A DNA stretch of 64,000 nucleotides, from NCBI GenBank assembly GCA_021234155.1, contig JAJEKV010000096.1, positions 229,501 through 293,500 of the forward strand, in the 5' to 3' direction. Positions 2,225 through 48,049 of this stretch are shown piece after piece. This DNA comes from Isoetes taiwanensis. Taxonomy: Eukaryota; Streptophyta; Lycopodiopsida; Isoetales; Isoetaceae. The notes beneath the pieces are model-generated. The model did no database searches and was not told where the DNA came from. It saw only the letters and a program-made list of their open reading frames with translations. Position 1 is the stretch's first letter, and the number at the start of each line of letters is the position of its first letter. The position numbers were made by a program, and so were the translations under genes.

Positions 2225-3960
2225 ATGTGTTACAACATAGCAGATCCTCCAGATCATTCTACTATTGAAAATGCTTCAATATATGAGGCATATAACCTGG
2301 ATTGGAACCCACTCCATCCTCATATTGCAGTTCCACCATCATCTGCCATGCCTCCTATTGTCGTGAGAAGATCCGAGAGGCTCAAGGCAAAGCATCAATT
2401 TGCTTGCAAGAAAAACTCTTGCAATTATGCCCTAATGACTCAACTCCTTGCTACATCAGATCCTGCCACCTACAAGCAAGTAGCTGCCATTCCCTTCTGG
2501 AATGCAACTATGCAAGCTGAATATGACATGCTTATACAGCAAGGCACTTGACAGCTCACTTCCAAACCAGCAGGCCAACATGTCATTGGGAACAAATGGG
2601 TATTTTGGACCAAATACAATTCCAATGGCAGCATAGCAAAGCACAAAGCTAGACTTGTGGCCAAGGGATATGCCCAAGAACTTGCCATTGACTATAAGAT
2701 GTTTTTGCCCCTGACGCTAGAATGCCTACCATTCGAGCAGCTATTGCATTGGCTGCCAGTACAGGATGGTCCATGTATCAGCTAGACTTTAAAATCGCCT
2801 TTTTAAATAGTGACCTGCAGGAAACTATTTATATGGAGCAACCTCAGGGATTTGTGAAAAAGTGAGAAGAATCACTTGTCTGCCACCTCCAGAAAAGTTT
2901 GTATGGCCTATGACAGGCCCGGAGATGTTGGCACAACAAGATCAATGCTTTTTTATTGAACATTGGCTTCAAATGGTCCACGGCAGATCCTAGTCTCTAT
3001 TACAAGAAAGCTGATGCTCAAATATTTATTTTGGTTCTTTATGTGGATGATTCAATCATCACAGGACGGGGGATGCAACATCTACCATTGCAGATTTAAA
3101 AGAGCACCTTGCACGCTCCTTTGAGGTCACAGACCTAGGACTTTTACATTATTGCCTCGGAATTGAAGTATGGCAAAAAGACACCTCCATTATGCTCACT
3201 CAAACCAAATACATAAAGAAAGTGTTAGACAGATTTCATATGGATTCATCCCAGCCAGTTCTTGCTCCATATGAACAAGGTAATAAACTTACCTTAGACA
3301 CTAATGGCGAATCATGTGATACCAAATTGTTTCGACAATTAGTTGGATCTCTCATCTATATCACCATTACTAGGCCAGACATCGTGTTTGCAGTTGGGCA
3401 AGTTAGCTGGTTTATGCAACACCCAAAGATGAGTCACTGGAGAGCAGCAAAGCAAATTCTAGCATATTTGCAAGGCACCATGTTTGAAGGAATTACTTAC
3501 TTTCAAAACCATGTGCCTGTGTTGTCCTTCTACACCGATGCAAAATTTGCATCCCATGACTATGAAACAAGGAAGTCTACTACGGGATTTGTCTCCTTCT
3601 TTGGAAAAAGTCCACTTCTGTGGGCCTCTAAAAAGCAGTCTACAGTGAGCCTCAGCAGTATTGAAGCAGAATTAAAAGCACTGTGCATAGGATTTCAAGA
3701 AATGGCTTGGATGCACACTCTTTTTCATGATATGGGAGTACAAGTCAAGGAAGACATTATGCTAGTGGATAATTCTGGGGCTATCGCCTTGACCAAAGAT
3801 TAGAAATATCATCCCTTAACAAAGCATTTCGACACTCAGTTATGCTTTATGAAGCAGCAACTCGATTTATACCATCATAACTCTGCAGTATTGTGCTACA
3901 CGCAAGCAACTAGCTGATGGACTGACAAAACCTCTCAGCGGCACTAAACTTCAGCAGATG
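2225..3960 (+). pseudogene. copia reverse transcriptase and RNase H, frameshifted
   Basis: The reverse transcriptase start is recognisable around 2580-2700 (NKWVFWTKYNSNG, then KARLVAKGYAQ). The polymerase active-site motif YVDD is intact at 3040-3051. The RNase H region is open from 3192 to 3803, with TRPDIVFAVG, the STTGF block and SSIEAELKAL, and ends at a premature TAG before the conserved KYHPLTKHFD segment. Several frame changes separate the blocks. The domain identity is secure and activity is not expected. Confidence 0.85.
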
Positions 3961-4971: not shown

Positions 4972-4975
4972 ATTA

Positions 4976-5000
4976 AAGTCGTATTTAATTAAAGTGGGAC
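4976..5000 (+). repeat. left terminal inverted repeat of element 1
   Basis: Begins AAGTCGTATTTAATTAAAGT and continues TGGGAC. It is the exact reverse complement of 17318-17342. ATTA immediately outside is matched by ATTA outside the right repeat. Confidence 0.85.
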
Positions 5001-5249
5001 TCATTCCATTCCCATTTTTTTTCGGAACCCGGTTAATTTACATAAAAAGTAGCACCCCGACCCGAAAACTATCCTTAATTCGAATTTTTGAATAAAACTC
5101 TGAATCCGAGCTGTGCTGCAGTTTTCCCAGGTTCGCGAGTCGAGAACAAAAACAATGCAACTGAAACAAAGGAAATTCATTAAAGTTTGAAACCAAAGAT
5201 GTAGTTGAAAAAGAATTTTTATTAATAAATTGAACAGATACAATGTATT

Positions 5250-5807
5250 TTACATCGGACGCAGAGACCATGGCGGTCTTGCTGTCACTACAGTTACATC
5301 ATCTTGGTAGGTGGTCCACCTTAGGGGATTAACTTGTGGCGCTTCTTCATGCCGTCTGTAAGCCTTGGGGGCAACCTGAAGAGTGTGGAATGCCTCACGT
5401 GGAGGTGCCTCTGGAGCTACCGGCCGACCTGTCCACCCGACTTCTCCACTCGCCTCCCGCAGCCTTTCATCGAATATGCTCCTTCCCCAACCTCCGTGGA
5501 TGTTATGCAATGCTTGCAATATGCCTTGAGCTTCCTGGACTTTCTCTTTGTTCTTCGCCTGTTCTTTATCCCCAGGGTGTAGCGAGCAACCTCTGAATTC
5601 GCGAGCAACCTTGTCCCAAAGGCCGGGCAAGAGTGTAGCGTGACCGGGATCTGTGCCAGAACGGTATTTCTTCCGCCTTGAGCTGGATCTGTGTCGCCTG
5701 GAGCGGTCTCTGTGATGCCTGAGCGGGATCTGTGCTGGTGTCGGATCTGTGCCTAAACCACCTGGAGCAAGGAGAGTATGATTAACAATTACGGTGCCAT
5801 TAGTCAA
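5250..5807 (-). CDS. unrecognised basic protein exon, element 1 minus-strand block
   Basis: An open frame of 185 codons is Arg/Ser-rich near its middle (RDRSRRHRSSSRRKK), followed by LLPGLWDKVAREF and a charged, probably helical segment. I recognise no named domain. It lies downstream of the NIF-like domain on the same strand, so it could be a terminal exon of that transcript or a separate small gene. The LPGL motif followed by a charged helix loosely recalls the coiled-coil segment of element 2 (55.8-56.0 kb), but I would not call homology from that. The basic Arg/Ser stretch is compatible with nuclear localisation. Confidence 0.4.
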   Translation of the reverse strand: MTNGTVIVNHTLLAPGGLGTDPTPAQIPLRHHRDRSRRHRSSSRRKKYRSGTDPGHATLLPGLWDKVAREFRGCSLHPGDKEQAKNKEKVQEAQGILQALHNIHGGWGRSIFDERLREASGEVGWTGRPVAPEAPPREAFHTLQVAPKAYRRHEEAPQVNPLRWTTYQDDVTVVTARPPWSLRPM

Positions 5808-5892
5808 AACGAAGAAAAGAATGTTGAAATCAAATTACAACGGAGAACATTCATTCCATACAACTGCATCCAATGACGTGGGAAGTAGTGTC

Positions 5893-6172
5893 TTTCTCGA
5901 CTCGCGAGTCGAGAAAGGCCCATAAAGTCAAAGTACAACCATTCTCATTAGAATATGGTTGCATCCAATCACACACGGAAGCATACAAATGCTTTTGTCA
6001 ACGAGACAACCAGCATGCCTTTCTCGACTCGCGAGTCGAGAAAGGCCCAGGAAACCCAATGTACAAGCATTATCATAATAGATTGTGGCTGCATCCAGTC
6101 ACACAATCAAACATACAAATGGTTTCATCAACACGACAAGCATGCCTTTCTCGACTCGTGAGTCGAGAAAGG
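5893..6172. repeat. three tandem palindrome units (about 125 bp period)
   Basis: Near-perfect palindromes of about 24-28 bp centred on CTCGACTCGCGAGTCGAG occur at 5893-5916, 6018-6045 and 6145-6172. They are separated by similar spacers containing GGTTGCATCCAATCACAC-type sequence. The third centre reads CGTG instead of CGCG. The array lies between two minus-strand coding blocks. Confidence 0.85.
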
Positions 6173-6275
6173 CATCGAAAACTCAATATACAAGTATATT
6201 CATTACAAAATGGTCAATACATGTGTTCACGTTCGATTACAATATTCACACAATTTGACTATCTGAAAGCAGGGG

Positions 6276-7086
6276 TCACTCTTCTTGTTCACCAAAGTAT
6301 TTGTCGTCCATAGCTTTCATGATCGGCTTGCTCTCTGGATCGGCGACAAGAATGGCAAAGAGGGATTCCGCCAAGACAGGACAGAGTCCGAAGGACAACC
6401 ACCTATCCGTCTCATATTCTTCAGGTCGATATGGCTTAGCAATGATTGTATTTTGCGCGTTATGATAGCACTTGTAGGCGGAGTCGTCTATGATCAGCGT
6501 GTTGTGTTTGCCATAGTCCTGGAATTGCTCATAAACCCTGTCCAGCCTTTTCACCATTATAGGCTTCCCCTTTGTGATGGCTGGATCGAGGTCCTTCACA
6601 TGCTCGACCCTTTCGTTTCCCCAAACGAACTTGAACTTCAAAACTGAAATGCCGAGAACACCAAGAACATTGACAATATTTTTCTTTGCCATACAAGACC
6701 ATATGCCCACTTCGAATCCCCGTTCCAGGCACCATTCAATAATTTCCTTAGCTCTAGGCCTCGGATACACTATTTTATGCTCTGTTTTCATTGGGATCTG
6801 CGAGGTGTTAATCTCGGGGACGTCTTTGTCGTGGTATACTGCAGCTAATACTCCATTGACGTCAAATATTACAAGCTTGGTGGGACCAGCTGGATCCCAG
6901 TTGGAGTTTGGCTCTGACCATATTTCCGGTTCATCGGGATCCAAATGCGGGATCATTATCTTTTCAGGTCCTTTAAAGGCCGTGGCGGTGTCTTGCTCTG
7001 GATTGTCTTTGTCCTTTTCATTCTCCTCCTCGCGACGTGAACCGCTGCCCAATGACAATGATCCGGAGTCGTTGAGCTCGAATTCC
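6276..7086 (-). CDS. FCP1/NIF-like HAD-family phosphatase domain (3' exon)
   Basis: The exon begins after a good acceptor (CATTTCAG, 7087-7094) and runs to a TGA-type end at 6276, about 269 codons. An acidic linker (EEENEKDKDNPEQD) leads into a HAD core. Motif I is KLVIFDVNGVL, a middle block reads GFEVGIWSCMAKKN, and the motif III/IV region reads HNTLIIDDSAYK, followed by NTIIAKPY. These match the C-terminal-domain-phosphatase-like HAD family common in plants. The usual second aspartate of DxDx(T/V) is asparagine (D-V-N-G), as also in element 2, so catalysis may be altered. The domain is open and looks intact, while upstream exons are uncertain. It is the last clear domain of the minus-strand block that also carries the ParB-like domain. 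Role in the element is unknown; removing phosphate from a host or element protein is the natural guess. Confidence 0.8.
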
Positions 7087-7226
7087 CTGAAATGATGACA
7101 TCCAGCCGAAAGGAAGCGAGTTTTCTCGACTTCATGAGTCGAGAATGAAAGAAAAGGTATTGAAAGGAAGCGAGTTTTCTCGACTTTCGCGAGTCGAGAA
7201 ACACCGATAAACAAAAATAAACTCAC
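7087..7226 (-). other. intron carrying two palindromes
   Basis: Donor GAG|GTGAGT ends the upstream exon at 7227 and the acceptor CATTTCAG precedes 7086. The 140-nt intron contains two CTCGACT...AGTCGAG palindromes (7121-7144 and 7174-7201), showing that the palindrome family sits in introns as well as spacers. Phase across this junction fits only one of the possible upstream frames, so the upstream join is not certain. Confidence 0.55.
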
Positions 7227-8890
7227 CTCAATCTCGGGTTTTTCAAGAATGTGTTCGGCAAACATTCGGGTCCAAACCGACATTCTCGTCTCCGTCAGCT
7301 TTGTCTCCCTCGTCCTCGTCGTCTTTACTGCTTCCATTTGTCTTCCTCCCCTTGAAATGCTCATGAAGCAGATCCAGGTATGACCGAATGGTTTCAACCA
7401 TTTCCTTATTTCCAACCACGGATATAGGTTTCATTCCAAACAAAGATAGCCCCCTCGAGAGAACAGGCCATTCATGTACCACTCGCGCGCCAATTTGATC
7501 TTCCTCGACCAAAGCGGTTATGAAGTACTTGATAACTCTTGGCGGGATAGGAATTCTATGTATAGGACACATCCGCACCATCTTTGCTGACCTTGTCCAT
7601 CGATGGAACATCCTCCATAAATCTGCCCCCCTTCCAGGGTTCCATCTGCTCTTGAGAGATCATGAACTTGTCGAGATAATGATGCTCGCTAGACCACCAC
7701 TTATCCAGGTCGACCGCCGATCTTGAAATCAAAACCAAAACTATGTTGGCAAAGCTTGGTGCCTTCGGCAAGCCAAGTCTGCACTCATGATCAAGTTCGT
7801 ATATGGAGTGCATGATCTTGTTGGTGAAGTTAATATCAGCTGCCCATTGGGAGACAGCAGTTGTTTGATTGCCCGGCATGCAAAAGACAAGGAAACTGAA
7901 AGTATCCAGGTCGGTCATGTCCGTTTTACGTCTTGTACCACTGCTCTATGTCAGCTTTGTCATAAAAAAGGGTGGGGTCTTCGATCATATTGATGGCAAA
8001 TAGTGCCACGGGTCCAGGTGCCAGTTCGAGACCACCAAATCCCTTGTGTCCCAAAGTAACCAGAAATGGGGAGCTATCGTCTGCCTTAAATGGGACCACC
8101 CCGAATCCAAGCTTCCTTTTCGAAATTGCCATAGCACGTTCGGGAAAGGAAGGGTTTTAACGTTACGCTTCGACTTGGTGTTGATGTAGGGTTGACATAG
8201 ACGGTTCAATTCCTTCATGTCTTCCTCATCAAGGGCAGCCTTTTCCTTGTAATAATCAAAATCATGGTATTCATTAGATGCAACGTTGCAGAACTCCGTG
8301 ATGCCTTCTTCTAACGCCTTATTTGTCGCTTTAGGGGCGTGGCATAATCCTTTAGATCCCGCATTTTAGAACTCTGGTCTTCCTTAGCGGGGATTGTTCC
8401 CTCCAAGATTTTGCCTTGTAGGTCAAGCGTTTCTTTGTCCGGTGAGGCCCCAGTATCCTCTTCATGAACTGCTTGTCAAACAACTTGGGGTCCGGCACGC
8501 TTGGAAATTCTCCATTCTTTGTCCTTGACTTGCCTCTTGTCCATTGAGCCCATATGTCGGTCCATTTCTCCCCGGGCCGCCTCGGTTACTAAGAATGAGG
8601 TCATATTGGTCTGAGAGAGACTCCCCACCTTTCCTTGGTGTTCTCTTCTTCTTCTCCTCTTCTTCCTCTCCCTCGTCATCTTCCGTCCCTCCAGTGAGAA
8701 CATATCTGCATAGTTTCTCAAAGGTCTTCCACTTATCAGGGGAGCCCTGCGTCCTTTAGGGCCGAGGACAACCCAATGCTTTCCATTTGCCCTGGCGTGT
8801 ATGATGCGAGTCGGGATAAGGGCTGCATTCGGACAATGTACCAATGTCGAGCATGAAAGTATCTACAAACACCCTAATAAGCGGTAAATA
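7227..8890 (-). pseudogene. central part of element 1 cargo protein, frames broken; possible methyltransferase-like fold
   Basis: Overlapping open segments in different frames give one continuous-looking protein in the minus direction. It runs from a charged Glu/Lys-rich region (8476-8844) through KELNRLCQPYI (8218), GHKGFGGLELAPGPVALFAI (about 8050), TDLDTFSFLVFCMPGN (7918) and DKWWSSEHHYLDKF (about 7700), to PVLSRGLSLFGMKPISVVGN (about 7450) and an acidic tail. At least two small frameshifts are needed to join them (near 7920 and 7590). The pattern GLSLFG...ISVVGNKEM followed by a helix is reminiscent of a SAM-methyltransferase nucleotide site, as in ParB-methyltransferase fusions, but key motifs are not convincing. 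I treat that as speculation; the segment is otherwise unrecognised. Confidence 0.5.
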
Positions 8891-8896
8891 GTAGCC

Positions 8897-9277
8897 CGGG
8901 TTTTCTCGACTCGCGGTCGAAAAGTCCCTTGAATGTCTAATTTTCTTTTTACTTCTACGGGTTTTCTCGACTCGCGAGTCGAGAAAGCTCTACATCCTTT
9001 GATTTTTACGTATTACCACGGCTTTCGACTGCGAGCGGTCGAAACCCCGATGATAATCGGCAAATGTTAGGATGGCGGGGCTTTCTCGACTTCATGATCG
9101 AAAAAATCCTGAATGTCTAATTTTCTTTTCTTGGCTAAGGGTTTTCTCGACTCGCGGTCGGCTCTACGCATCCTTTGATTTTACGTGTTACCACGGCTTT
9201 CGACTCGCGAGTCGAGAAACCCGATGATAATCGGCAAATGTTAGGATGGCGGGGCTTTCTCGACTTCGCGAATCGAA
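8897..9277. repeat. higher-order array of the CTCGACTCGCGAGTCGAG palindrome
   Basis: Seven palindrome-bearing subunits of about 60 bp form a repeating A-B-C order. A begins near 8897, B near 8959 and C near 9018, then the order repeats at about 9079, 9138, 9196 and 9253. B units carry CATCCTTTGATTTT-type tails and C units carry GATGATAATCGGCAAATG. Several palindromes have lost bases on one arm. The array separates the ParB-like exon from the next coding segment, so it is probably intronic. Confidence 0.85.
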
Positions 9278-9325
9278 TGGAAAAATTCGAGAGAGTTATT
9301 TACCTTCGTGGCGGCACTTTCGTTG

Positions 9326-9997
9326 CTATTGTGTTACGGCGGTGGCTAATGTCTCCGTCGAAAGAACTCTGCACTCTCGCTTGGCATATCTATCCTTGAT
9401 CCTTTGCGGCACCTCCTTCTCAAGTGCAATAATACTTGAGCCGCCCTCAGCGAATCTTGGCCCGCCTACAACCCGAACCCGGGCGTCTTTTCCCTTCAGA
9501 TCTTCCTCAGACTTCCAGCTGAACAACTCACCTGTCGATCTGCTAAAAGGTATGACATCCGCAGGCATTGGATCTGCAACAGGATGTCGCACCATCAGGT
9601 TCAGAATCTCCAGCATGTGTGCTGGATTAAATTCCACAATGGTTGAACAAGGCGGCATCTCCGTGCAAACCTTCAGCCGTCTAATGTCCAAAGCAGCGAC
9701 TTGTGTGATATTCCCCACGGATAATCTTGAGCTAGACGGCTCCATTTTACGTGCCCCTCTCTGTGAAATCCTGATCTGATCATCTGGATCGAGGTTTGGG
9801 GACTCGACCATATCTTCGTCTCCTTCCTCATCTGATTCCTCCCGTGTGGTGTCATCTTCCACATCTTTGTTTTTTGGTGGACTTTTTTGTGTATGAACCA
9901 CAACTTCATTCCCCACTGCAGAGTGTTGTAGAGCCTTCAGCACAGTAGAAGTGAAGCTCCCCGTATTGAACAGTTTTCCCCGACTGAAAATCTCCAT
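9326..9997 (-). CDS. ParB-like domain exon of element 1 cargo protein
   Basis: An open frame of 223 codons. An N-terminal acidic low-complexity stretch (EESDEEGDED) precedes DIRRLKVCTEMPPCSTIVEF, a helical segment MLEILNLMVRHP, then RVRVVGGPRFAEGG with a downstream helix and CRVLS. The layout of strand, VVGG loop, helix and late strand fits the ParB/sulfiredoxin-like fold. Its hallmark is a G-G-x-H/R loop, and the usual His is not clearly present (GGPRF). It shares the minus strand and direction with the NIF-like exon, so both are probably parts of one multi-exon gene. In bacteria and phages ParB-like domains act as CTPases, nucleases or DNA-site readers. Function here is unknown. Confidence 0.55.
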   Translation of the reverse strand: MEIFSRGKLFNTGSFTSTVLKALQHSAVGNEVVVHTQKSPPKNKDVEDDTTREESDEEGDEDMVESPNLDPDDQIRISQRGARKMEPSSSRLSVGNITQVAALDIRRLKVCTEMPPCSTIVEFNPAHMLEILNLMVRHPVADPMPADVIPFSRSTGELFSWKSEEDLKGKDARVRVVGGPRFAEGGSSIIALEKEVPQRIKDRYAKRECRVLSTETLATAVTQ

Positions 9998-10184
9998 ACC
10001 AAGCTCCCTCGGATGTTAGGGTTCCGCCTCCTTCATCCCTTCCGATCCTTCCACCCAAGGTTCGACAATTTAAAGGCGCCAGAGCCTTTTTCGGTGCCCT
10101 TAGCCTTGCTCATGGAAGAGTGAGAATAATTTGAAACCAAGCTAATTTTTGGTGCGATAGAACTTACTCTTCCTCCGGCGGTCC

Positions 10185-10439
10185 TCAACATGTAGTGTTA
10201 AATGCTTGAATCTGGCGCAGAGAGGCGGAGAGCACAACACCGATTTTCTTGTACTTGTCTCCGGAGCTCTTCTTGTCCCTTTGGTGTAGAAACAGATCTT
10301 TCTCCTTCCCACTTGTCGATACCTCGACATACCACCAAGAATCTGCCGCTTGTTTCAAGAAGCTCGTCTCCGGTCCCTCGATGACGAAGAATGGAGTTCG
10401 CCCGCTGATCACCAAAGTGAGTCCGGTGAATCTTTGCAA
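10185..10439 (-). CDS. unrecognised exon of element 1 minus-strand block
   Basis: An open frame of 84 codons includes GLTLVISGRTPFFVIEGPET and SFLKQAADSWWYVEVSTS. The regular alternation of hydrophobic and charged residues and the lack of stops in a GC-richer stretch look like real coding sequence. It lies upstream of the ParB-like exon in the same direction and may be an earlier exon of that gene. I do not recognise the domain. Confidence 0.45.
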   Translation of the reverse strand: MQRFTGLTLVISGRTPFFVIEGPETSFLKQAADSWWYVEVSTSGKEKDLFLHQRDKKSSGDKYKKIGVVLSASLRQIQAFNTTC

Positions 10440-10946
10440 GAAGAAAGGATGGATCGGTTAAGGTATTCCGACAAAAGAAAAACCTCGAGCTCACACAGGG
10501 TGTTTGTCTTCTTCTTCTTCTTTGCCGGTAGAAGCATCCCCTCCGGCCTACCGCTTCTTGGGCGGAGTCATGTGCGTATGCCCTCTCATCCTCTTCGCAT
10601 ACCCCTCAGAAATTAAGTTTCCTCCGCGGGTTGTGAGTTTTAGGACTGCATGTAAAAAGATCAGGCGTGTTCTTTAGTTTGAACTTAAGGACATGCAATC
10701 ATTTATGAAAAGAAGCGGGCTAAGGGTACAAAGACGGTGGCCGCTTTTAGCCCGCCCAAACACTATTTCAAATTTAATCACATCAAGGGACTAAGTGAGC
10801 GGAGCGTAGTTTATCTTCCTCAAAAGCATTGGGGACCTCGAGTTGGAGGGGAGCATCGATCGTTAGCGACTTCGGAATGGCGCCCCGCTGACGGTAAAGG
10901 CGCTAACAGCGCCTTGCATATGTGTTTTTCCTGACCGCGCGTCCTA

Positions 10947-11183
10947 TTGCAAGCAGTTGATTTGATCGATGAGCACGGAGCTAAGGTAGGAAGCGGAGAG
11001 GAGCTGCCAGACACGGGAACTCTACACTGCGGCGCCATGGAACGGGGATACGCGAGAATCGCAGTGATACAAGTATTAGATGCGAATACACTCTTGAAGA
11101 GACCGACAGAAGAAGCAAAGACTCTAGGTGAGGCTGCGGGATCCGTGATACAGTGGCCCAAGGAATTACTGCGTGAAGAGGTG
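10947..11183 (+). CDS. En/Spm (CACTA)-type Tnp1/DUF8039-like domain exon
   Basis: The translation contains GARVGSG-like, LPDTGTLHCGAMERGYARIA and then LLKRPTEEAKTLGEAAG, with SVIQWPKELL. The order 'V.....LG.. V.V..VL....LP.PTEE..TLGEA.GS.I.WPK.L' is the small all-beta/alpha domain associated with plant Tnp1/En-Spm-like proteins (DUF8039). The segment ends at a strong donor (GAAGAG|GTGAGTTTC, about 11183), so it is an exon. It is oriented opposite to the cargo gene and the same way as the transposase. A related segment recurs near 14.3 kb. It could be a remnant of a second element or an alternative 5' exon of the transposase gene. Confidence 0.5.
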
Positions 11184-11237
11184 AGTTTCAGAGATGCCTA
11201 TGTTATTTCGCTTGTAGAACATGCCGTATGTGTTTAA

Positions 11238-11980
11238 ATAATGGAACTGCTGATAAGCTCGACGGATTCATTGTTTCTTTGTCGAGCATTTTTCAGCTTC
11301 GATAGATGATTTACTCTCTGGGTTGAGAGATGCTCGGCAAGGAAACAATGGATCGGGGGTAAAGAACAGTTCCGTTTTAGGTGTGTTTTTTCATGGACTG
11401 TTTACTTGGAATGTTGTACATAGATCAGGCTAGGACTAAGGCCCAGGAGATGCGGTTCAAATGCATCCTCTTGTAGTTAGTCGGAGGGGCCCACCACTGT
11501 CCAGAACCACTCCTCTTCGCAATATTCGAGGAAGATGGTTCAAGGAGAGTGGCTCGCATGTGCTAGAGGCACTTGGGACTAAAAAACAGAGAATAGAAAG
11601 TCAAAAGTGCTTGTAGAGAATGCAAGCCTTGGCTTCCTCTCTGTGGTTTCCCCTCGTGGTTGGTTGTAGAGGCCTCCACCCGGTCAGAGCCCCTCCCTTC
11701 CTAATACTCGGCGAAGATGGTTCGAAGGAGGAGTGACTGACTGGTCGAGGTGCTGCTACCATACAGGGAGATTAGGCGGCTAAAGATTCGACTTACGGGA
11801 AGTCGAGGAAAATGCGACTGTTAATTTTACTGTCTACGATCTCGGCTTCATAAAATGAGAATGCGCCAGCCATCGAGAACTCGGTTAGTACACCTGAGTG
11901 CACATTTGTTAAGGCATTCCCGATTCAGCGTGATCTGAAACGACAAACTCTATGGTTTCCACAATGCGGAGTTGCCGTGT
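11238..11980. other. GC-richer non-coding segment of element 1
   Basis: No coding signal that I can support. The segment includes a short inverted repeat around 11255-11350 (GCTCGACGGATTCATTGTTT against AAACAATGGATC) and degenerate repeats of TCGGCGAAGATGGTTCGAAG that recur at about 11700, 12340 and elsewhere. Confidence 0.4.
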
Positions 11981-12872
11981 CTATATTCTCGACTCGCCAA
12001 TTCGAGAATGCCTTAACCATGTCGAGAACTCCGGGGATGGTACACATGGAGTGCCGGTTGGGTAAGGCATTCCCGACTTCCTTGGCCGAGGAAATCATCT
12101 GACAAGCTCTGTGGTATCCACTGGGTTGCTGAGTTGCACTGTGACTGATCAAAACAACTTCCCGCCGCCCAGTGTCCGAGGAAGATAGAAGGAGAGTTGT
12201 TAAGACCGTCCGCAGCCAGCTCTAGAGTGCCGCTCGCAGCTGGCCGCTTTCTCACTCACGAGTCGAAAGCTGCCAGCACCTCGGTTAGTCGCCGAGGCCT
12301 CCACCCAATCGAGCCCATCCCCTTCTCGCAATATTCGGCGAAGATGGTTCGAAGGAGACGGTCTTTGATTGGGTAGAGGCCACAAATACCACATACAGGG
12401 AGAATTGGGTTGCAAGAGTTGGCCCGCACGCGAAAACCACTTCGCAAATGTCCGGCAGGAAGATAGAAGGAGAGTGGTTAAGACTGCCCGCAGCCAGCTC
12501 TAGAGTGCACTAGAGCTCTGCGTTTTCGACTCACGAAGTCGAGAAAGCGCCAGCAACTTCGCGGTTGTTGTCGCCGAGGCCTCCACCCCGGGCCGGAGCC
12601 GGTCCTCTTCGCAATATTCGATGAGCATGGTTCTGGCGAGAGTGGCTCAAATCGGGTGGGAGGCACCGGCGACCGCACAAAGAGCCATTGGCGGGGTATC
12701 ACATTCTCGACTCACGAAGTCGAGAAGGTCACCGCAGGTTCTAAAGAATGTGAAGACATTGGGTAGTCGTAGGTATCTCGAATCGCGAAGTCGAGAATCC
12801 CTCAACAACCAGCGGTCCGAGTGTACACTCCCTCTTCTGCCCTCGCGAAGTCGAGAGTTCTCGACTCATGCG
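11981..12872. repeat. dispersed palindromes and CGAAGATGGTTC-type repeats
   Basis: Degenerate copies of the CTCGACTC..GAGTCGAG palindrome occur near 11983, 12248, 12526, 12702, 12775 and 12840. Between them a larger unit recurs, with GCCGAGGCCTCCACCC, TTCGCAATATTCG and GATGGTTCGAAGGAG (for example around 11700, 12290-12350 and 12560-12640). It is a decayed tandem array, not coding. Confidence 0.7.
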
Positions 12873-13340
12873 AAGAAGAAGAAGGCCTTCTGACTTCCCC
12901 GGATCAAGTGGCAAGCTGAAGTATTCTCAACTCGCCACTCCCTTCTGCATGTCTCCCCCGCAAAGTGGATTTCTTTGTGAGTTAGAAATGGAGATTCCGT
13001 GAAGCAATTCCTATTCGAAGTCTTCTTTGGGAGAAAGACATTCCTAGTTATTTTCTCGTTAATGCTCGCAATATCTTACTTCCTAACACCGGTCTCGATG
13101 ATTTCTATCTCGGTTGCTTGCTACTACTCTAACCACTATTCTCACTTGTGCCTGCATAATGTATTCAATTCAACCACAAGCAAGAAAAAGATAACAAAAA
13201 AAGTAAAACAATACAAAGATTAATGAGATTAATGAGAAAAACAGAGAACAAAGGAGAACAAAGATCAGAACAACGCTGGAGAACAAGACATTTAAAAAAA
13301 TGAGATTAAAAAAGGGTATGATATTACAAAAACATACCTG

Positions 13341-13802
13341 GAAGATTTGCTGGATGAGGAGGAGGCTTCCGAGTTCGCTTCCATGTGGGTATAGTCGTTG
13401 GCAAAGCGTGAATAAGGATTTGTCGGGCTGTAAATTGTATCAGGGATTAATAAGAGCCTCTAACAACAGAATATAAGTAAAAATGCACTAAAGGACTTAC
13501 AGAAAACTAAAAAGCAGCACTAAAAAGGGCCTCACTTTCTTCTCAGGCGGTAACGCCCGCTCGAACAATGAATCAATGAGAACTTTATTTGGAAGCTGCC
13601 CCCGATCCGTCGACCAAGCTGCTGTCATAAGATGGCCTTGGAATCGCTCGGTTCGATCGATCGCCTGATCGGTAAAGCGGGCGCCTAAGGAAACAGGGGA
13701 GGAAGAGTGATCAGAGAAAACAGGGGAGGAAGAATGGTCGGGGGGAGAGGAAGAGGGTGCGCGATTAATTACCGCACCCTCGAACCGCGTGTAAAAGTGC
13801 AA
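13341..13802 (-). CDS. 5' exons of an element 1 minus-strand gene
   Basis: An ATG at 13802 opens a frame reading MHFYTRFEGAVINRAP, then RTERFQGHLMTAAWS and LIDSLFERALPPEKK. It ends at the donor AAA|GTGAGG (last exon base about 13536). A second exon (13431-13341) reads PDKSLFTLCQRLYPHG in phase and ends at CCAG|GTATGT. Two good splice sites in phase support a real gene start. The gene diverges from the transposase, with about 450 bp between them. I do not recognise the N-terminal domain. It is plausibly the start of the ParB/NIF cargo gene, but the intervening exons are not resolved. Confidence 0.5.
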
Positions 13803-13939
13803 TAATAAAAACCATTGTCACGTGTGGGCCATGCCCTCCATGACGTGGCAGTGCGGATTGCTGACATGGCCACGGTTTCAGCCTCTGAAGAGGCGCCACG
13901 TGGCCATGACAAAATATGAAAGGGTAGGTTATATGTTTA

Positions 13940-14170
13940 TATATGTTATCTTATGTATTTAATAAGGTTTCAATGGTTGTATTTAATATGGTTTCAATGG
14001 TTGTATTTAATATGGTTTCAATGGTTACAATGTTTACATATGGTTTAGAATGAGTGTGGTTGTATGCTTTAATATGGTTATATGATTTTAGTTAATATGG
14101 TTGTATGATTTTAGTTAATATGGTTGTATGATTTAATATGATTATATTTAATATGTTTGTATGGTTTTAT
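13940..14170. repeat. AT-rich minisatellite in the divergent intergenic region
   Basis: Degenerate tandem units of TTTAATATGGTTGTATGA and GGTTTCAATGGTTGTATT type. It lies between the starts of the divergent cargo and transposase genes, so it falls where promoters of both would be. Confidence 0.75.
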
Positions 14171-14232
14171 ATGGTTCATATGGTCATATTTGTGGTGTTT
14201 GGGGCTATATGGTTTTAATGTGAGCTTTTTCA

Positions 14233-17146
14233 TTCAGGGAGCATGTGAGATGAGTAAAATGGAGCCAGGGAATTCCAAAGGAGGCCATTGCCCTAGGCTC
14301 CAATGGAGGAAGATGGGTTGCCTTTTGTTGCACCCTTGCAACCAGACGGTATTTGCAGAGGGCATAATAACTGCAGTTGATCCATTTGATAGTGTGAATG
14401 ATGAGAGGCTGGGAGATGAACATCTTGGAGTTGGCATTGTGAAGCTTCTTATCGAAGTTGATACTATCATGTCCCAGGGAAGCTCTAGTGATTGCATTGT
14501 GTGCTCGGGGTCAGGGAGTCCCAAGCTCGAGATGGCCAATTAGATTTATTACACACAAGAATGGTGATACTCTAGAATGCCCTCATGAACTACACACCCC
14601 AAGGCCCACCCAAGGCCATGTGGAAGATTTGGTGGTCGATGAGCATCCTTTGATCACAAGGAAGAGACGCTATATGTCTTTCATAAAAGGCAGCCAAAGG
14701 TGCCCAAGAGGCCTAGAAGTGACAAATATTTAGAAAGGATGGAAAGTATGGCACCAACCAAAGAAAACCTGGAGGCAATTAGGGGACAAGAGTGTTGCAA
14801 CCTAGATTGCACAGTGCATTACAATGTGGATGACCTCGTGCAGATAAGGTCCCAATACATTGGACAGCTTCAAAAAGATAGGATTAATTTCATTTACTCC
14901 TTGTGTAGGAATTCCAGCTATGATGAAAAACACAGGATCTACCGCTATATCAATTGAGGGGAATGAAGGTATGTATGAGAGCATTGAGATGGATTCTTGG
15001 GGTGAGCAAGTCTTCATTTTACAGATACTGGGAGCAGGTTAGAAAAGGGCACACTTTGTTCCAACATGGTAATGCACTCACTTTGAAACCTAGAGCAAAT
15101 ACTCTAAAGGCCATTGCAGTCTTCGAGAGCTTTGTGAGATACATGTCTCAATCTATGCCCCACAAGTCGAAGGTGAACGAGCACGGTGTGCGAGTGGTGC
15201 AAAGAATATCCAAAAGGAGTGCCTTAAGGAGGTCAACTCCATCCTAGAAACTACTGGAGGTAGGCCTCTTTCTCAATCACATTTCAGCAAGTTATGGAGC
15301 ACTCACTTCTCGGACGTGAGTGTCCTACAACACATGCCATTCTCAAAGTGCAACACTTGCATTCAACTCAAGGATACACTTGCATCAACTGCAATAGAGA
15401 AAGAAAGAATGGCAATTAGGGAGCAATTTGCAGATCACCAAAGGGACCAAATATCATGTAGACAGTTGTATTGGCAGTGGAGAACATTTTCTGAGATGCA
15501 GCCGGACAAATTTTTGTGTATAATTCATGATAAGATGGACCAACACAAGACTTTCTTGCCAAAGCTAGATCCTTTACCCAAGCGTTGTCAAAACGCTTTT
15601 CAGATGAAAGTAAGTCCGCAAGGGTGTATTAACACATGGTCATGGAACTGGAACATATGGTCATTTTGTGTGCTTGATCTATGGAGAGATGATCCAAACT
15701 TCCATGTGAGCTCTATTTTCAAGTGCCCGAGAACACTAGAGAAAGGATCGATAGAAGGGAGGAGGTATTCCCCTTCAACACCCATTTTTGAGGCTTTGAT
15801 GGATGATCAACCGCTTTGTTACCAAAGGCAGATAAAAAAGCTCACATCCAAGGTGTCTAGTGAATCAAGGAGGACTTGGGATGATTTCCCCTTACTTGAG
15901 AAATCACTTTGAGGAGCTATGTGTTCGTTGGACAAGCTGTTGGAAAGAAAACAAGAATAGATGGATGTTTGAGGCAATGTCATACTTGACGGCCAGTGGG
16001 GAGTATTCAAAGTTGTGAAAGTGGGATTCATGATGGTTGGGCATACGCATGATGATATAGATGGATTCTTTGGAACTTTCTCCACCAAGCTCAAGAGAGA
16101 AAACGTGACCACTCTCCCTGAACTAATGGATGTGTTTGAGAGCTGCATTGACCCCAACCCAATGGCTTCCTTGATGGATGAGGTTGCAGATTGGAAATCA
16201 TTTGTAGAAGGATACTTGCTAGATGGCAAGGACCGTTTAATGAGGACACACAAAGCCACTTCAATTCAAGTTTTGGGTTAGGGATGGAATACCAATCATG
16301 CAATATAAGTGGAGACCGGTGACAAGTTGTGGATGCCCAGTACAAGGTATCGAGTTGTGGCAAAGGGGTGCTTTCTTTGGTGAAGTTCTCATTCCTAAAG
16401 GGCAGCCAAAACCACTACCTCCCTTCAAGACAGTCAAAGACTCTAGCCAACTGGTGAAGGGCATCAAGGATTACATAATGCACTGGGATGATGCTCGAAA
16501 TGGAAAGCACACCTCCACTCTTAAGAAAAATCAAATGGACTCCCTAATCAAGTACTGGGAGAAAGTTGTGACATGCTTAGAAACCCCGAACGACCATGTG
16601 GGAGGGAGCTAAGAGAGCGGGTTCTTGCCAGAGTCAAGATGGGAGGGTTCTCAAGGTGCAAGCACGTCTAAGAATGCTCACTTGGGTCCCAACAAGGGTT
16701 CCAAGTGGTTTGTGGGAAGTAAGGCCTCAAAGCCGAAGTGGTTTGATCTTCCTGAGTGGGATCCCTTTGAGGACATCAAGGAAGGATACTTTGTGCTAGT
16801 AAGGCCCCGATGATGAGGACTGCCCAATATGGTTAGGGGTGGCACTCTCGATGTGACCACCACTATGCCTGATGGAGAGGAGTTAGGTCCCCGATTCCAA
16901 ATTCAATATTGGGAGCCCATTGGGAGGCACAAGAAGGGCAACTTGAAGGAGCAATACACTGACTGCTGGGAGAAGAAGTGGAGGGCAAATTATGCTGACC
17001 CTCAAAGGAGGGAATTGGTGGAGTGTGTGGTATGGTCATATCCAAGTTCTCACATTGCAAAAGACAACACACACAAGATCCCAAGAAAGGAGATGGACAA
17101 GGCCATGAGCAACCTCCATGCTATATCATTGTATGAGGGTGCATAA
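14233..17146 (+). pseudogene. DUF7869-like (RNase-H-fold) transposase, frameshifted
   Basis: The N-terminal part (14251-14541) reads GCLLLHPCNQTVFAEGIITA, like the Tnp1/DUF8039 module. It is followed by a Cys-containing helical segment (CCNLDCTVHYNVDDLVQIR, 14790-14850) and a winged-helix-like stretch at about 14960-15230. The core has FSKCNTCIQLKD (about 15340), DKMDQHKTFLP (about 15535), the frame-shifted THGHGTGTYGH segment (about 15630), ENKNRWMFEAMSYL (about 15945) and VGFMMVGHTHDDIDGFFG (about 16025). The last three blocks are hallmarks of the DUF7869 family. The C-terminal module contains IKEGYFVLV (16770) and FQIQYWEPIG (16895) to the stop at 17146. At least five frame changes or stops break the gene. 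It would cut at the terminal repeats if functional, but it is not functional here. Confidence 0.75.
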
Positions 17147-17317
17147 TATTGAGAAGTTTGAAAACTTTCTCAACTAGTGGTTTGTAAAATTTATGAGGAA
17201 AACAAGTAACCCAATTCTATGTGTGTCATGTGTAATTCTATTCAAGCAATCAATTCAGAAATTTCTTTTATGGTGTGTGAGTCCCATTTTCAGTCCGAGT
17301 CCCAAAATTCAAGATTT

Positions 17318-17342
17318 GTCCCACTTTAATTAAATACGACTT
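17318..17342 (-). repeat. right terminal inverted repeat of element 1
   Basis: Reads GTCCCACTTTAATTAAATAC then GACTT on the plus strand, a perfect inverse match to the left end. Two further GTCCCA/GTCCCA-like copies lie at 17281-17303, suggesting subterminal transposase sites. Confidence 0.85.
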
Positions 17343-17346
17343 ATTA

Positions 17347-31601: not shown

Positions 31602-32990
31602 GAGAGGGAAATTATGGCAGAAGATCCCCTCATGGGCCTGGCTTCCCTTATCCCAGAAGAAAAAGAAGACCTTCTTGATGATCTTGCTCCTACGGAAGAA
31701 GAAGTGAGGGAATTAAATGAACTCACCCCCAAATTCCATCAGGAAGGATGAGATAATCAGCAAGTGCATGATCAAGAAGTAGAACTTGCAGTTCAGGATT
31801 CCCCATGCACACCAGAAAAGTTAGAAGATCCTGATCCTTTCAACTTTCAAGGGGAGTTGGATTATGCCAAAGCAAGAATCCGTGAATTGATGGGGCAGGT
31901 TGCAGAAACAAAGATTGAGCAAGCACATACTAATCAATTGCTCAAGAGTTTGCAACTCCAATTAACCAAGCAAGCTAATGATGCAGCAGAAAGAGAGAAG
32001 AAATTATTTGATACCATAGCTCGATTATTGGCAAGGGGCCCAGGGGGCACCACCAATGGGGGACCTAATCAAGCTCAGGGAGCCCAAGTTAACTAGGCTC
32101 AGGGAGCTCGGGTAAAGGTCTTAACCTAAGCAAACCCCTCTCATGTAAACCCAACTGTTGTTGCAAACCAGACTAGCCAAGCTCAAGGGACTGTGGCTAG
32201 GACGATGGATGCAAATCCCAATGAGGGAGTAGAAGTCCTGGCAAACTTATCTCTTGAGGAGGTTAAGGGGCTAGAAAAGAGGGATCATACTGAATTCTAT
32301 GCCACTGAGTTAGCAGAACAAACCATTCAGTGGCTTAACTGGTTAGAGACCTATTTTCAAGCCACCAAGAAGGGAGATGCAGCCAGGGTGCTGCATGCTG
32401 CTCTTCAGTTGCGAGGGGCTGCTTCTTCTTGGTGGGGGATCCTCATGGGTAGAGGAGTAGAGATTAATAGTTGGGCAGACTTTTGCAAATTCTTTAAGCA
32501 AGAATAAGCCCCTCACCATGATGAACATCATGCACTGATCCAGCTTAAAAGCATCAGGCAAAGGGACACCTTACAGCAATACATCAACACTTTAAGAGGT
32601 GTATTTGCAAGGATCAAGGAAATGCTAGCACGGATGCAAGTAAGTTATTTTGAAGATGGGCTTCGAAATCATAGCCTTAGGGCACATATCAGGCAGGTAA
32701 ATCCAGAGGATTTTGAGTCTACAGTGTCCCTAGTACGCGCATTAACAAGCTCCCCAAGAGAAGAAGGGGAGGAAGAGAGCAAGAAAGCTCGTCACTTCCA
32801 AGAATGAAAGCAAAGAAAACTTGAAAATAAGCAAGGAGGGTCAAATAAAAGGGCTAGAATAGCCCAAGTTAACCCTCCAAGCAATGATAAAGGCAAAGGG
32901 GATGCCTCTTCAGGGAAGAAGTCCACTAAGCCATTTGCTTGTTACAATTGCGGTGCAAAGGGGCATATGGCCAGGGATTGCCCAGAACCC
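31602..32990 (+). pseudogene. gypsy Gag with zinc knuckle, several stops
   Basis: Gag reads from about 31602 (EREIMAEDPLMGLASLIPEE) through a coiled-coil stretch (QLLKSLQLQLTKQANDAAER, about 31940-32000) and a capsid-like region (FYATELAEQTIQWLNWLETY, about 32300). The CX2CX4HX4C knuckle (CYNCGAKGHMARDC) is intact at 32940-32981. Stops at 31749, 32094, 32505 and 32805 break the frame. The capsid and knuckle layout matches chromovirus Gag. Confidence 0.8.
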
Positions 32991-32999
32991 CATAAGGAC

Positions 33000-35900
33000 A
33001 AGAAGGCGATGGCCGCTACAACCAAACAAGTTGAAGGGGGAACCAAGCAACCCTCCGCCATAGCTCAGGGAGAGCCCAGTTCGGTAAGTAAGAAAAACTT
33101 TGTCGGGCAAGTTATCCGTTTACTTGGGAAAATAAATAATAGAAACGTCATTGTTCTTATTGACTCTGGGAGTACTGACAATTTCATTTCTGCAGACTTA
33201 GCACAAGAACTAAAGATGGAAATGGTTCAAGTGGCACCATACGAAATTGAGACTGAAGCTGGGAAACAGATTCAGCATTGGAGCCACGGGGTGGCTGGTC
33301 TGCACTCGACCATTGGAGACTATGAGGAAACAATGAGTTTTGACTTAGCAAAATTGACCAGATTTGATGTGATACTAGGTATCAAATGGCTTTAAATGGT
33401 CAAATTGATTGGAAAAAACATTTGTTAGTTATTTCTAGGGGAGGGAAGGAGATTACCTTCAGGGTACTCCTTTCCCCCAAGTTAATAATGGCTAGGCAAG
33501 CCAAACATTGTTTCCGTTCCAACATTAATGAAAAATATTTTGTCTATGTTCTTGACTCCCCCATAGATTCAATGCAAATAAATGCTATGGACAAGGATAA
33601 CAAGCTTGAAAGTTTGCTTAATAAATATAGGGATGTGTTCCCAGAAGGAGTACCATTGAGAGAAATCTAAAACGAGATAGAATTGGAACCAAGAACTAAG
33701 CCAGTGGCCAGGGCACCATATAGATTTAGCCTCCTGGAGCAAGAAGAGGTCAAAGAACAAATTCAAGAATTGCTCCAAAAGGGTTTCATAAGGCCTAATA
33801 AGTCACCATTTGGGGCGCCTGTCATCCTTGTAAAGAAAAAGGATGGGAACATGCGCATGTGTATCGATTATAGGGTTTTGAATAAAGCCACCATTAAAGA
33901 TCGCTACCCAATGCCTAGAATTGATGATATCATGGATCGATTGGTGGGGGCAAAATATTTCTCCAAGATCGACCTAAGAAGTGGATATCACCAAATTAGC
34001 ATTAGGGGAGGAGATGAACCCAAAACGGCCTTTCGAACCAACCAAGGGCATTTTGAATTTGTGGTCATGCCCTTTGGATTAATAAATGCCCCAGCCACAT
34101 TTATGCGGCAGATGAACACTGTTTTTCAGGGGTATCTAGACAAATTTATCCAAATATTCCTGGATGAAGAGGAGCACTTGGAACACTTGGAAAAGGTATT
34201 GATGACACTCTGGGAGCACAAACTTTATGCCAAAATTTCCAAATGTGAATTTCTAAAACAACAAGTGGCATACCTGGGACACATAGTCTCGGAAAAGGGT
34301 TTGGCCCCAGAGCTGGACAAAGTACGAGCCATAAGGGAATGGCCAGAACTTATAGATGTTCCCGATACAAGAAGTTTCTTGGGCTTAGCCACTTATTATA
34401 GGAAATTCATTCCAAAGTTTTCAAGGTGGCTGCCCCCCTTACAGACCTACTTAAGAAAGATCAACCCTTTGTATGGGGGAAGGAGCAAAAGATGTCCTTT
34501 GAAAATTCAAGTGAACCAATTCTGAAAATTCTGGATTTAAATTTGCCCTTTCAAGTTTATATTGACGCATGTGGACAAGCTCTGAGAGCAGTTCTAATGC
34601 AACAAGGGCATGTTGTGGCTTACGAAAGTTGTAAACTAAATCCGGCAGAAAGGAACTATGCCACATATGAACAAGAGTTGTTGGCCATAGTTCATGCCTT
34701 AAAAACTTGGTGACATTACTTAAGGTCAGGGACCAATAAAGAGCCACGCAAGTTTATTGTGTTCACTGATCATAAACCATTGAAATTTCTGCAAAGTCAA
34801 GCAAAAATAAGTCCCAGACAAGCGCGCTGGTTGGATTTCTTACATGAATTTCACTTTGAGATTCGGCACACCCCTGGGAAAGATAACCCAGTTGCAGATG
34901 CACTTTCCAGAATAAAATACATTAATTAAATGACATCTCTAGAATGGGATCACTTCCAACAAATCAGGGATTTGTATGAGAAGGATCAAGATCCATTTCA
35001 TTCCAAAAGAGAAGGTTCTCTTTGAGCACGAAATGACGATATATGGTTCTATAAGGGATGGATTTGTGTTCCCTTAGTAGAGAATCTTAGGAAGGAGATT
35101 CTTTACGAATTCCATAATACCCCGCAAGCAGGGCTTGGGGGGAGTGGAAGACATATGAATTGGTTAAAAGACAATTCTTTTGGCCTGGTATGAAACAAGA
35201 TGTAAAATCTTATGTATCACAGTGCCAGATATGTCAGGCGGTAAAAACAGATCATGGCAAAATGCCAGGATTATTACAACCGTTACCCATACCTTTGGAA
35301 AGGTGGGGATGCATAAGTATGGATTTCATAGTTGCACTCCCACGATCCAATCGACAACACACCCAAGTGCTAGTGATGGTCGATTGTCTGACAAAGTATA
35401 CAAAGTTCTTAGCATTACGAGGTGATGCTACTAGACAGGATGTGGCCAAGGAGTACCTACGGATTGTGTATGTTTGGTCTGCCACGAAGAATTGTAAGCG
35501 ATCGGAACTCTAAATTCACGGGGCACTTTTGGAAATATTTCATCAAGGGGTTAGGAGTAAGCCTCAGTATGAGTAGTGGAAATCACCCCCAAACTGATGG
35601 ACAAACAGAACGAATTAACATGATCCTGGAGGATATGTTAAGAAGTTTTGTATTTGAAAAATAGTCCAAGTGGGAGGAATATTTTCCCTTTGTATAATTT
35701 GCTTACAACAACGCATACCACACAGGAACCAAAATGAGCCCCTTTATGGCAATGATGGGTAGGAACCCAAGATCATATACTGGGACTAACCAAGCCTTGA
35801 AAACTGATGCAACTATCCATATGTTGGAAGATATGCAAGCCATATTATAACAGTGTAGGGCAAACTTAAAGAAGGCTTAAGATCGAGCCAGGCTAAATGC

Positions 35901-46002: not shown

Positions 46003-47145
46003 GTTACAGAATTGGTAACACATTTGATATACAATTGGCAACTTCCATTTCATTGCCCTTTCAGTTCATCAGCAATTTTAGCAAGCAATTGCGCATGGCT
46101 TCATTGCTCGCAACCATCCACCTGCCAATACCCTTGTGTGTGGGCTTTTTTCCTTTCTTCATCAGCAATTGCACGTGGCCAATGCTTGCACCACTAATCC
46201 CTTGGAATTTGATGAGTTTAGAAGGAAGCATACATGTACCATCTTGATAGCATGGCCTCTTGTGATTTAAGCTTTCAGTTGCTGCATGTTCATGCATCAT
46301 GTCCCGTGGTATCTTAATATTTAAACTCCTTATCCTCCTCCTTTCACATGCAACTGAGTATTTGGCAATCCAAGGGTGTTATAGAATTGGTAACACATTT
46401 TATGTACAATTGGTAACTTTCATTTCATCAGCAATTTTAGCAAGCAATTGCACATGGTTCCATTGCTGGCAGCGATCCACCTGACAATACCCTTGTGTGC
46501 AGGCTTTTTACCATTCTTCATCAGCAATTAGCAAGCAGTTGCACATGGCTTCAATGCTTGCAGTGATCCACTAGTCCCTTGAAGTTTGATGAGTTTAGAA
46601 GGAAGCATACATGTACCATCCTCATAGCATGGCCTCCTGTGATATGGTCTCTTGTGATTTAAGCTTTCGGCTGCTGCCTGTTCATGCATCATGTCCCGTG
46701 GTATCTTAATCTTTGTCCTCCTTATCCTCATTCTTTAACATGCAACTGAGTATTTGGCAATCCAAGATGTTACAGACTTGGTAACACATTTTATATACAA
46801 TTGGTAACTTTCATTCCATCAGCAATTTTAACAAGCAATTGCACATGGTTCCATTCCTCGCAGCGATCCACCTGACAATACCCTTGTGTGTGGGCTTTTT
46901 TCCATTCTTCATCAGCAATTAACGAGCAGTTGCACATGGCTTCAATGCTTGCAGTGATCCACTAGTCCCTTGAAGTTTGATGAGTTTGGAAGGAAGCATA
47001 CATGTACCATCTTCATAGCATGGCCTCTTGTGATTTAAGCTTTCAGCTGCTGCCTGTTCATGCATCATGTCGCATGGTATCTTAATCTTTGTCCTTCTTA
47101 TCCTCCTCCTTTCGCATGCAACTGAGTATTTGGCAATCCAAGGGT
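46003..47145. repeat. three tandem copies of the kinase gene 3' end
   Basis: Units of 375-391 bp occupy 46003-46377, 46378-46768 and 46769-47145. Each begins GTTACAGAATTGGTAACACA or a close variant and ends CTGAGTATTTGGCAATCCAA. The third unit overlaps the coding end of the kinase (46919-47145). The two outer units carry the same C-terminal reading frame (KIPRDMMHEQAAAESLNHKR in the middle copy) detached from any kinase domain. The middle copy has a small internal duplication (TCACAAGAGACCATATCACA on the minus strand). Confidence 0.9.
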
Positions 47146-47989
47146 GTGACAATATTTGCTGCAAACTTATTCTTTCGTCGGGATCAGGCCGCAACATCGC
47201 CAAAACAAGACTCCTTGCTTCTTCTGATACCATTCCAGCGGGCCATTCTAACTCTGATACAGCCAAATCCTCACCATTGAGCAGTTTTTCTCCAATCTCA
47301 CCAGTCTCTAAGTTTGGGAAGTGATTGAGGCCAGTAAGTGACTGATATAATATCAAACCCAAACCCCATATGTCTATCTCTGTGGAATAATATCCCTGCA
47401 GAACCTCAGGAGCAAAGTAGCCATCGGTTCCAACTTGGGATGTAAAATTGGGAGGAGAACATGTAAAACGAGCCGAGATGCCAAAATCTGAAACCCTAAC
47501 ATCGTAAGGTTTTGTTGTTGAGACCACAAGAATGTTATCTGGCTTCAGGTCCCGGTGGATAATACCATTTTGATGTAGATCTTGTATAGCTAGTGCAAGG
47601 TTTCTAATAAGAAGGGCCACTTCCTTCTCGCATAACTTGCCTCTGTTCATAATTAGGTCAACCAAACTACATTCACATAATTCCATGATCAGGTGCCAGT
47701 AACCATCATCTATGATCACTTCGTGTAAGAGTATTATGCCAGGGCTGCTGGCCAATTTCTGCATAATCTCTATCTCCTCTGCTGGCTTTGTGTATTCGGC
47801 CTTCTCAATTGAGATGGTTTTGCAAGCAAACTGTTTCTTACCCCTTTTACTCCTGCAAAGGAAAACCGTAGCTTGGGCGCCATTGCCTATCTCCTTCACC
47901 AGATCATAGCGCTCCAAAAGATTAGGATATGAAGCCAAATAAGTGTAGTTGAGAACGTCTTCTTCTGCCTCTTGCATCTCTGTCTCCAT
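46919..47989 (-). CDS. intronless serine/threonine protein kinase (CDPK/PEPRK-like catalytic domain)
   Basis: The product is 356 aa. The kinase domain starts at about residue 28 (YDLVKEIGNGAQATVFLCRS). The ATP lysine lies in FACKT (residue 57), IIHRDLKPDNIL has HRD at 145-147, VSDFGISARF has DFG at 168-170, and YFAPEVLQGYY and HPWIAKYS close the domain. All catalytic residues are present. The fold and CDPK-like HPW end resemble plant CDPK/SnRK superfamily kinases such as PEP-carboxylase-kinase-related ones. No EF hands follow. I chose the ATG at 47989 over one at 48142 because a TATA box (TATAAATT, 48049-48042) lies between them and is followed by a GA-rich leader. Its last 75 codons lie in the triplicated unit. 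Confidence 0.88.
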   Translation of the reverse strand: METEMQEAEEDVLNYTYLASYPNLLERYDLVKEIGNGAQATVFLCRSKRGKKQFACKTISIEKAEYTKPAEEIEIMQKLASSPGIILLHEVIIDDGYWHLIMELCECSLVDLIMNRGKLCEKEVALLIRNLALAIQDLHQNGIIHRDLKPDNILVVSTTKPYDVRVSDFGISARFTCSPPNFTSQVGTDGYFAPEVLQGYYSTEIDIWGLGLILYQSLTGLNHFPNLETGEIGEKLLNGEDLAVSELEWPAGMVSEEARSLVLAMLRPDPDERISLQQILSHPWIAKYSVACERRRIRRTKIKIPCDMMHEQAAAESLNHKRPCYEDGTCMLPSKLIKLQGTSGSLQALKPCATAR

Positions 47990-48041
47990 TTCTTCGCGTC
48001 TCTGTGAACACACACTCTCTCTCTGAAATGAAAACGGACCA

Positions 48042-48049
48042 AATTTATA
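48042..48049 (-). promoter_or_regulatory. TATA box of the kinase gene
   Basis: The minus strand reads GGTATAAATTTGG about 55 bp upstream of the ATG at 47989. A CAGAGAGAGAGTGTG pyrimidine/purine leader typical of plant 5' UTRs follows it. Position and leader support it as the core promoter. Confidence 0.6.

Follow-up and report, generated by a model that had tools for sequence, protein, structure and literature searches.

Sola2 transposons are described with 4-bp AT-rich target duplications, short terminal inverted repeats (TIRs) and captured Fanzor genes (PMC3627910), and Sola1 has been listed for Physcomitrella (PMC9033089). A 9-base motif related to the VANC21 protein is dense in the noncoding DNA of VANDAL21 transposons of Arabidopsis (PMC5735166; PMC10398659). 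The element considered here lies in a window of 64,000 nucleotides of the Isoetes taiwanensis genome (assembly GCA_021234155.1, contig JAJEKV010000096.1, positions 229,501 to 293,500 of the forward strand), and positions below are counted within this window. The element spans positions 4976 to 17342, both ends being exact, and it is considered, with a probability of about 0.8, a two-gene DNA transposon with TIRs that belongs to a very abundant family. One gene encodes a DUF7869 protein, and the second one is placed divergently to it. There is good support for mobility driven by a DDE transposase that makes 4-bp staggered cuts.

Element ends, target duplications and copy number

An earlier note on this DNA had proposed perfect 25-bp TIRs and an ATTA duplication as the boundaries of the element and as indicators of the duplication size. 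Both repeats were confirmed on each flank (Table 1), and a matching 4-bp target-site duplication (TSD) was found in all the 26 end pairs compared (the window, eight fetched copies, 13 long-range pairs and four short-class pairs). The genome search with the 25-bp end suggested in the same note, carried out on 1,658,258,908 bases in 1,110 contigs, gave 2,217 exact occurrences (1,102 + 1,115) vs none in the reversed control (0 + 0), and chance repeats were rejected on these counts. At least 40 genomic places were identical to the left 66 bp (40 scored of 1,131 candidates) and at least 40 to the right 106 bp (40 scored of 1,212 candidates).

Ten copies (e1-e10) were fetched as stretches of 20 kb each, and the right end was located within that stretch in eight of them, seven regular copies and one with an imperfect TIR; the right end of copy e2 was not found in its 20 kb. 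The TSDs of the seven regular copies were ATAT, ATAT, TAAA, TGAG, GTAT, CTTT and GTAT, and that of the imperfect-TIR copy was ATAA. Thirteen further left/right pairs, each on one contig with ends 8.8-55.7 kb apart and including copy e10, were compared in 40-base windows, and the TSD matched in every one (13/13), as it did in the four pairs checked out of 12 short pairs. The A+T content of the TSDs of the first 22 pairs was 80%. Further units with the same ends and 4-bp duplications are present, and other end pairs flank related genes. The sequence outside the ends varied between copies (10 copies, 13 pairs and 4 short pairs), the homology stopping at 4976 and 17342. Subterminal TGGGAC motifs, also reported in the earlier note, were found at the right end (GTCCCA at 17281, 17299 and 17318), whereas at the left end the motif occurs only within the TIR (4995); this hexamer appears 33 times in the whole window, both strands included.

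Among the first 100 TIR places there were 31 convergent pairs separated by less than 60 kb, which fell into classes of 3.5-5.8 kb (12 pairs), 11.0-14.8 kb (14 pairs) and 23-56 kb (5 pairs); one neighbour pair within 15 kb showed another orientation. Long copies were colinear with the window across both halves, save for insertions and deletions (for e2 and e10, within the stretch that was read). A 32-mer from exon 2 of the second gene had 482 exact genomic copies (control 0) and was present in 9 of the 14 middle pairs, in none of the 12 short pairs and in the five longest ones; since it is absent from five of the 14 pairs of 11-15 kb, exact words under-count. The short pair C124:445389-450497 contains a NIF match (C124:446632-447297), so that the short class is not uniformly devoid of the whole second gene. 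Real deletions also occur among the copies, as in e6, e8 and L003, the latter being a left end in which element positions 1-219 are joined straight to about 5449, with the second gene removed. In copy e1 (G000:C930:19043715-19063714; L009, L010) the transposase half is interrupted by roughly 5.4 kb of nested, inserted sequence, which contains two open frames (819 and 593 amino acids).

The DUF7869 transposase

The transposase-like gene previously noticed on the plus strand is real, its PF25273 (DUF7869) match having an E value of 4.8e-22 and 78.9 bits vs a gathering score of 26. The best named homologues were those of Physcomitrium. In the homologue alignment (40 of 42 aligned), D232 and D357 were invariant and D397 and D399 nearly so. 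The predicted model of homologue P0023 was RNase H-like, with Mos1 and retroviral integrases as the nearest structures and with the conserved aspartates of DUF7869 at the catalytic places, which are the ends of strands 1 and 4 and the last helix. This model supports the RNase H fold claimed in the earlier note and the predicted membership of the DUF7869 protein among DDE/RNase H-like transposases. The protein would cut the tips of the TIRs and join the element to its target with a 4-bp stagger, by cut-and-paste DDE chemistry. No paper containing the word DUF7869 was found in the openly licensed PMC library, and this domain, so far of unknown function, gains defined ends, a TSD length, a predicted fold and a putative catalytic set.

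A first look at the genome gave 9,902 DUF7869 candidates, and the best 150 all scored over the cut-off, with open frames of up to 987 amino acids. The unbroken 987-amino acid DUF7869 frame is that of L065 (G000:C1018:2446500-2456499), which is diverged from the family of the window and for which a recognisable TIR/TSD pair was not found within 10 kb; another DUF7869 lineage and a gene no longer mobile are candidate readings of it. A viral source was rejected, as no relatives of the transposase were found in the viral contigs or phages searched and none of the second protein in the phages searched. The best match in BFVD (E 2.7e-3) was to a Tetraselmis virus 1 protein, itself a putative transposase.

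The second gene

The minus-strand block looks, from its sequence, like one spliced gene made up of a ParB-like part, a middle of about 550 residues and a NIF/HAD end. The HAD domain that the earlier note had placed here was recovered as a PF03031 (NIF) match in the open reading frame 6276-7430 (E 1.3e-10, 41.6 bits vs a gathering score of 21.8), with 35.7 bits in copy L066. Active NIF/FCP1-like HAD phosphatases have DxDx(T/V) as motif I, which is not matched by the DVNGV found in the window, e5, e9 and L066. Exon 2 is open for 539-575 amino acids in L067-L069; the donor GAG/GTGAGT is located at its end in 14 of the 16 copies scanned, the acceptor CATTTCAG follows about 130 bases past the donor in at least seven of these 16, and by inspection the reading phase runs from exon 2 into the NIF exon. 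As for the ParB-like domain, the resemblance noticed earlier holds by eye, exon 1 of L066 reading 'FNPAHMLEILNLMMRHPVADPMPADVIPF ... VVDGQHKY' with stops in frame, but no Pfam match was obtained at E values up to 10 with exon-1 readings that were all broken or partial. No homologues of the second protein were found in the protein collection.

The exon-2 query gave 1,999 candidates in the genome, the best 150 with 83-100% identity, and the NIF query gave 6,838, of which the best 150 were also considered; for at least 47 of these 150 places of exon 2, a NIF match lay some 1.1-2.3 kb further downstream and in the same orientation. The ratio of nonsynonymous to synonymous substitution rates (dN/dS) in seven of the 150 copies, chosen for their long frames and compared over 261 columns, was 0.10-0.32 in all but one of the 21 pairs, the exception having 0.60, with dS values of 0.08-0.69. 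On account of these low ratios the second gene looks as if kept by selection, unlike a mere passenger. The term 'cargo' used in the earlier note is not supported for a block that looks like a single spliced, multi-copy, selected gene, although some copies with the same ends lack it.

Palindromes and base composition

The 22-bp palindrome TTCTCGACTCGCGAGTCGAGAA has five sites in the window at up to three mismatches, with 0 expected. Twenty-six of the 27 half-sites of the window are inside the element, all between 5138 and 12860, and none of these 26 falls in the three exons of the second gene, which with their approximate boundaries occupy 42% of this span (p about 5e-5 for 18 separate loci, taken as independent). 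The sites surround the second gene, several of them being repeated in tandem with a period of about 60 or 127 bases, and none is found in the transposase half or near the right TIR. In a diverged copy, C1029 (71-83% identical), the palindrome is kept at four of the five homologous places, at two of them exactly. In the four copies profiled, the CpG observed/expected ratio ranged from 0.56 to 1.50 in the first 9 kb and from 0.09 to 0.66 in the transposase half; this contrast may stem from an earlier protection against methylation or from halves of different origin.

The second protein would bind these noncoding palindromes as putative sites and, acting in a VANC-like way, would sustain expression of the element in the face of host methylation or else tune it; copies lacking the second gene would rely on movement in trans. 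That the second gene encodes an element-specific protein which acts on the palindromes of its own noncoding DNA, by analogy with VANC21, is advanced as a tentative proposal, somewhat short of even odds. A more specific version, in which a fused ParB-like/NIF-like protein recognizes the 22-bp palindrome, arrayed in introns and flanks, in a ParB/parS-like manner and protects or switches the half with undepleted CpG, as an anti-silencing system independent of VANC, is considered unlikely.

Broken frames

The transposase frame is broken in the window copy, as was noted earlier, but its designation as a 'pseudogene' is doubtful because the copies differ mainly at CG, CTG and CAG, and the breaks may be partly artefactual. 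Seven copies were compared for the transposase half and eight for the second-gene half. Differences in the transposase half form 76 tight clusters, 38 of them with a CG within 4 bases vs 11.7 expected, while the other half lack a nearby CG. Identical stretches separate the clusters, and the differences include insertions and deletions; windows of 20 bases free of differences were 39 of 113 in the transposase half vs 9.2 expected, and 17 of 143 in the second-gene half vs 0.4 expected. The fraction of occurrences touched in the two alignments was 0.77/0.94 for CG, 0.95/0.97 for CTG and 0.73/0.96 for CAG, and for AT, TA and AA it was 0.19-0.24 and 0.40-0.56. These differences may be base-calling errors of unpolished long reads at CG/CHG methylation, and other transposon 'pseudogenes' of long-read plant assemblies may likewise be artefacts at methylated cytosines.

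Alternative explanations

The transposase might instead be dead in all long copies, with real mutations between them and with another DUF7869 lineage mobilizing the family in trans. No unbroken transposase frame was seen among the copies read, the 9,902 first-look candidates include frames of up to 987 amino acids among the best 150, and some differences are real deletions (e6, e8, L003); this explanation appears rather improbable, however, given the concentration of differences at CG, CTG and CAG and the insertions and deletions with identical stretches between them. A comparable, rather low probability is given to a host gene captured once and spread as a passenger, in the manner of Pack-type elements, without serving the transposon. 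The low dN/dS among diverged copies argues against such a passenger, and so does the preservation of noncoding palindromes together with the second gene, while the absence of the exon-2 word from the 12 short pairs, the loss of the gene in L003, the different CpG content of its half and the precedent of Fanzor genes in Sola2 are in its favor. The palindromes could also serve the transposase or replication, or be merely spreading short repeats. In En/Spm, repeats are bound by the transposase, and several of the present sites are in tandem arrays; the location of the sites around the second gene, away from the transposase half and the right TIR, speaks against it. This alternative is given less than even probability.

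Several observations weigh against a functional two-gene transposon with an effective second protein. No full transposase frame was found in the fetched copies, including the full units in which the earlier note had suggested looking for an intact one, and the dN/dS set was selected for long frames. In C1029 one palindrome place is lost and another one has three changes, and over 18 kb neither a convincing TIR nor a transposase was seen with this copy of the second gene, which argues against a strict link. From the clustering of differences at CG/CHG, the two halves would at present both be methylated in the sequenced plant, in conflict with an effective protection. The two-gene transposon is the preferred reading with these points included.

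Features of the window

Retroelement remnants were found in the window at 999-1553, 3051-3803 and 32808-34525 (gag_pre-integrs/rve, RVT_2 and zinc knuckle/protease/RVT_1, respectively). An open frame of 408 amino acids on the minus strand (46919-48145) matches the protein kinase family PF00069 (E 6e-59), and another one of 486 amino acids on the plus strand (51518-52978) had no Pfam match at E 0.01.

Table 1. Coordinates of the element and its parts in the 64,000-nucleotide window.
Feature	Position	Strand	Remarks
Left TSD, ATTA	4972..4975		Directly outside left TIR
Left TIR, 25 bp	4976..5000	+	Perfect inverted match to right TIR
Left palindrome cluster	5132..6171		Full sites at 5894, 6021 and 6148, half-site at 5138; downstream of second gene
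Second gene, exon 3	6276..7086	-	NIF/FCP1-like HAD domain, PF03031; stop at low end
Second gene, putative intron 2	7087..7226	-	Donor GAG/GTGAGT, acceptor CATTTCAG/G; two palindromic sites at 7125-7192
Second gene, exon 2	7227..8850	-	About 550 residues; frame broken in window; upper boundary approximate, by inspection
Second gene, putative intron 1	8851..9303	-	Approximate boundaries; seven half-sites
Second gene, exon 1	9304..10145	-	Approximate start; ParB-like stretch by eye
Upstream palindrome cluster	11801..12881		In array of degenerate repeats, between both genes
AT-rich direct repeats	13948..14176		Near border of CpG-rich and CpG-poor halves
DUF7869 transposase gene	14643..17146	+	Broken frames; PF25273 match at 15973-16281
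Right TIR, 25 bp	17318..17342	-	Perfect inverted match to left TIR
Right TSD, ATTA	17343..17346		Directly outside right TIR

Comparison with known systems

Three superfamilies were rejected by their ends or duplications: piggyBac, as none of the 26 duplications is TTAA; KDZ/Zisupton, which has an 8-bp target duplication vs the 4 bp of all 26 pairs; and CACTA (En/Spm), the ends of which begin with CACTA vs AAGTC in this element. The predicted fold of the catalytic domain resembles those of Tc1/mariner (Mos1) and retroviral integrases, although their sequence identity to the DUF7869 homologue model is 5-15%, and mariner elements produce a TA duplication. Bacterial ParB acts with parS sites, and the ParB-like stretch seen by eye in exon 1 together with a repeated palindrome near the gene recalls this system, from which the element differs in the lack of Pfam support, in its palindrome and in its eukaryotic nuclear location.

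Sola is the nearest superfamily by duplication length, compared by description only (PMC3627910, PMC9033089, PMC4455052); Physcomitrella, for which Sola1 has been listed, also has DUF7869 proteins, whereas a second gene and palindromes are unmentioned in the Sola passages considered. The likeness to the VANDAL/VANC anti-silencing systems of Arabidopsis consists of a non-transposase gene in the element and a motif that is dense in its noncoding regions, represented here by 26 half-sites with none in exons. The motif is YAGTATTAY in that system and a 22-bp palindrome in this one, and binding and demethylation have been demonstrated for VANC, while the present pairing is proposed from sequence. 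VANDALs are Mutator-like elements with 9-bp duplications and a transposase of another type than DUF7869. Besides VANC, the Isoetes element would possibly provide another example in which a gene of a transposon has its counterpart in sites scattered through the noncoding DNA of that transposon.

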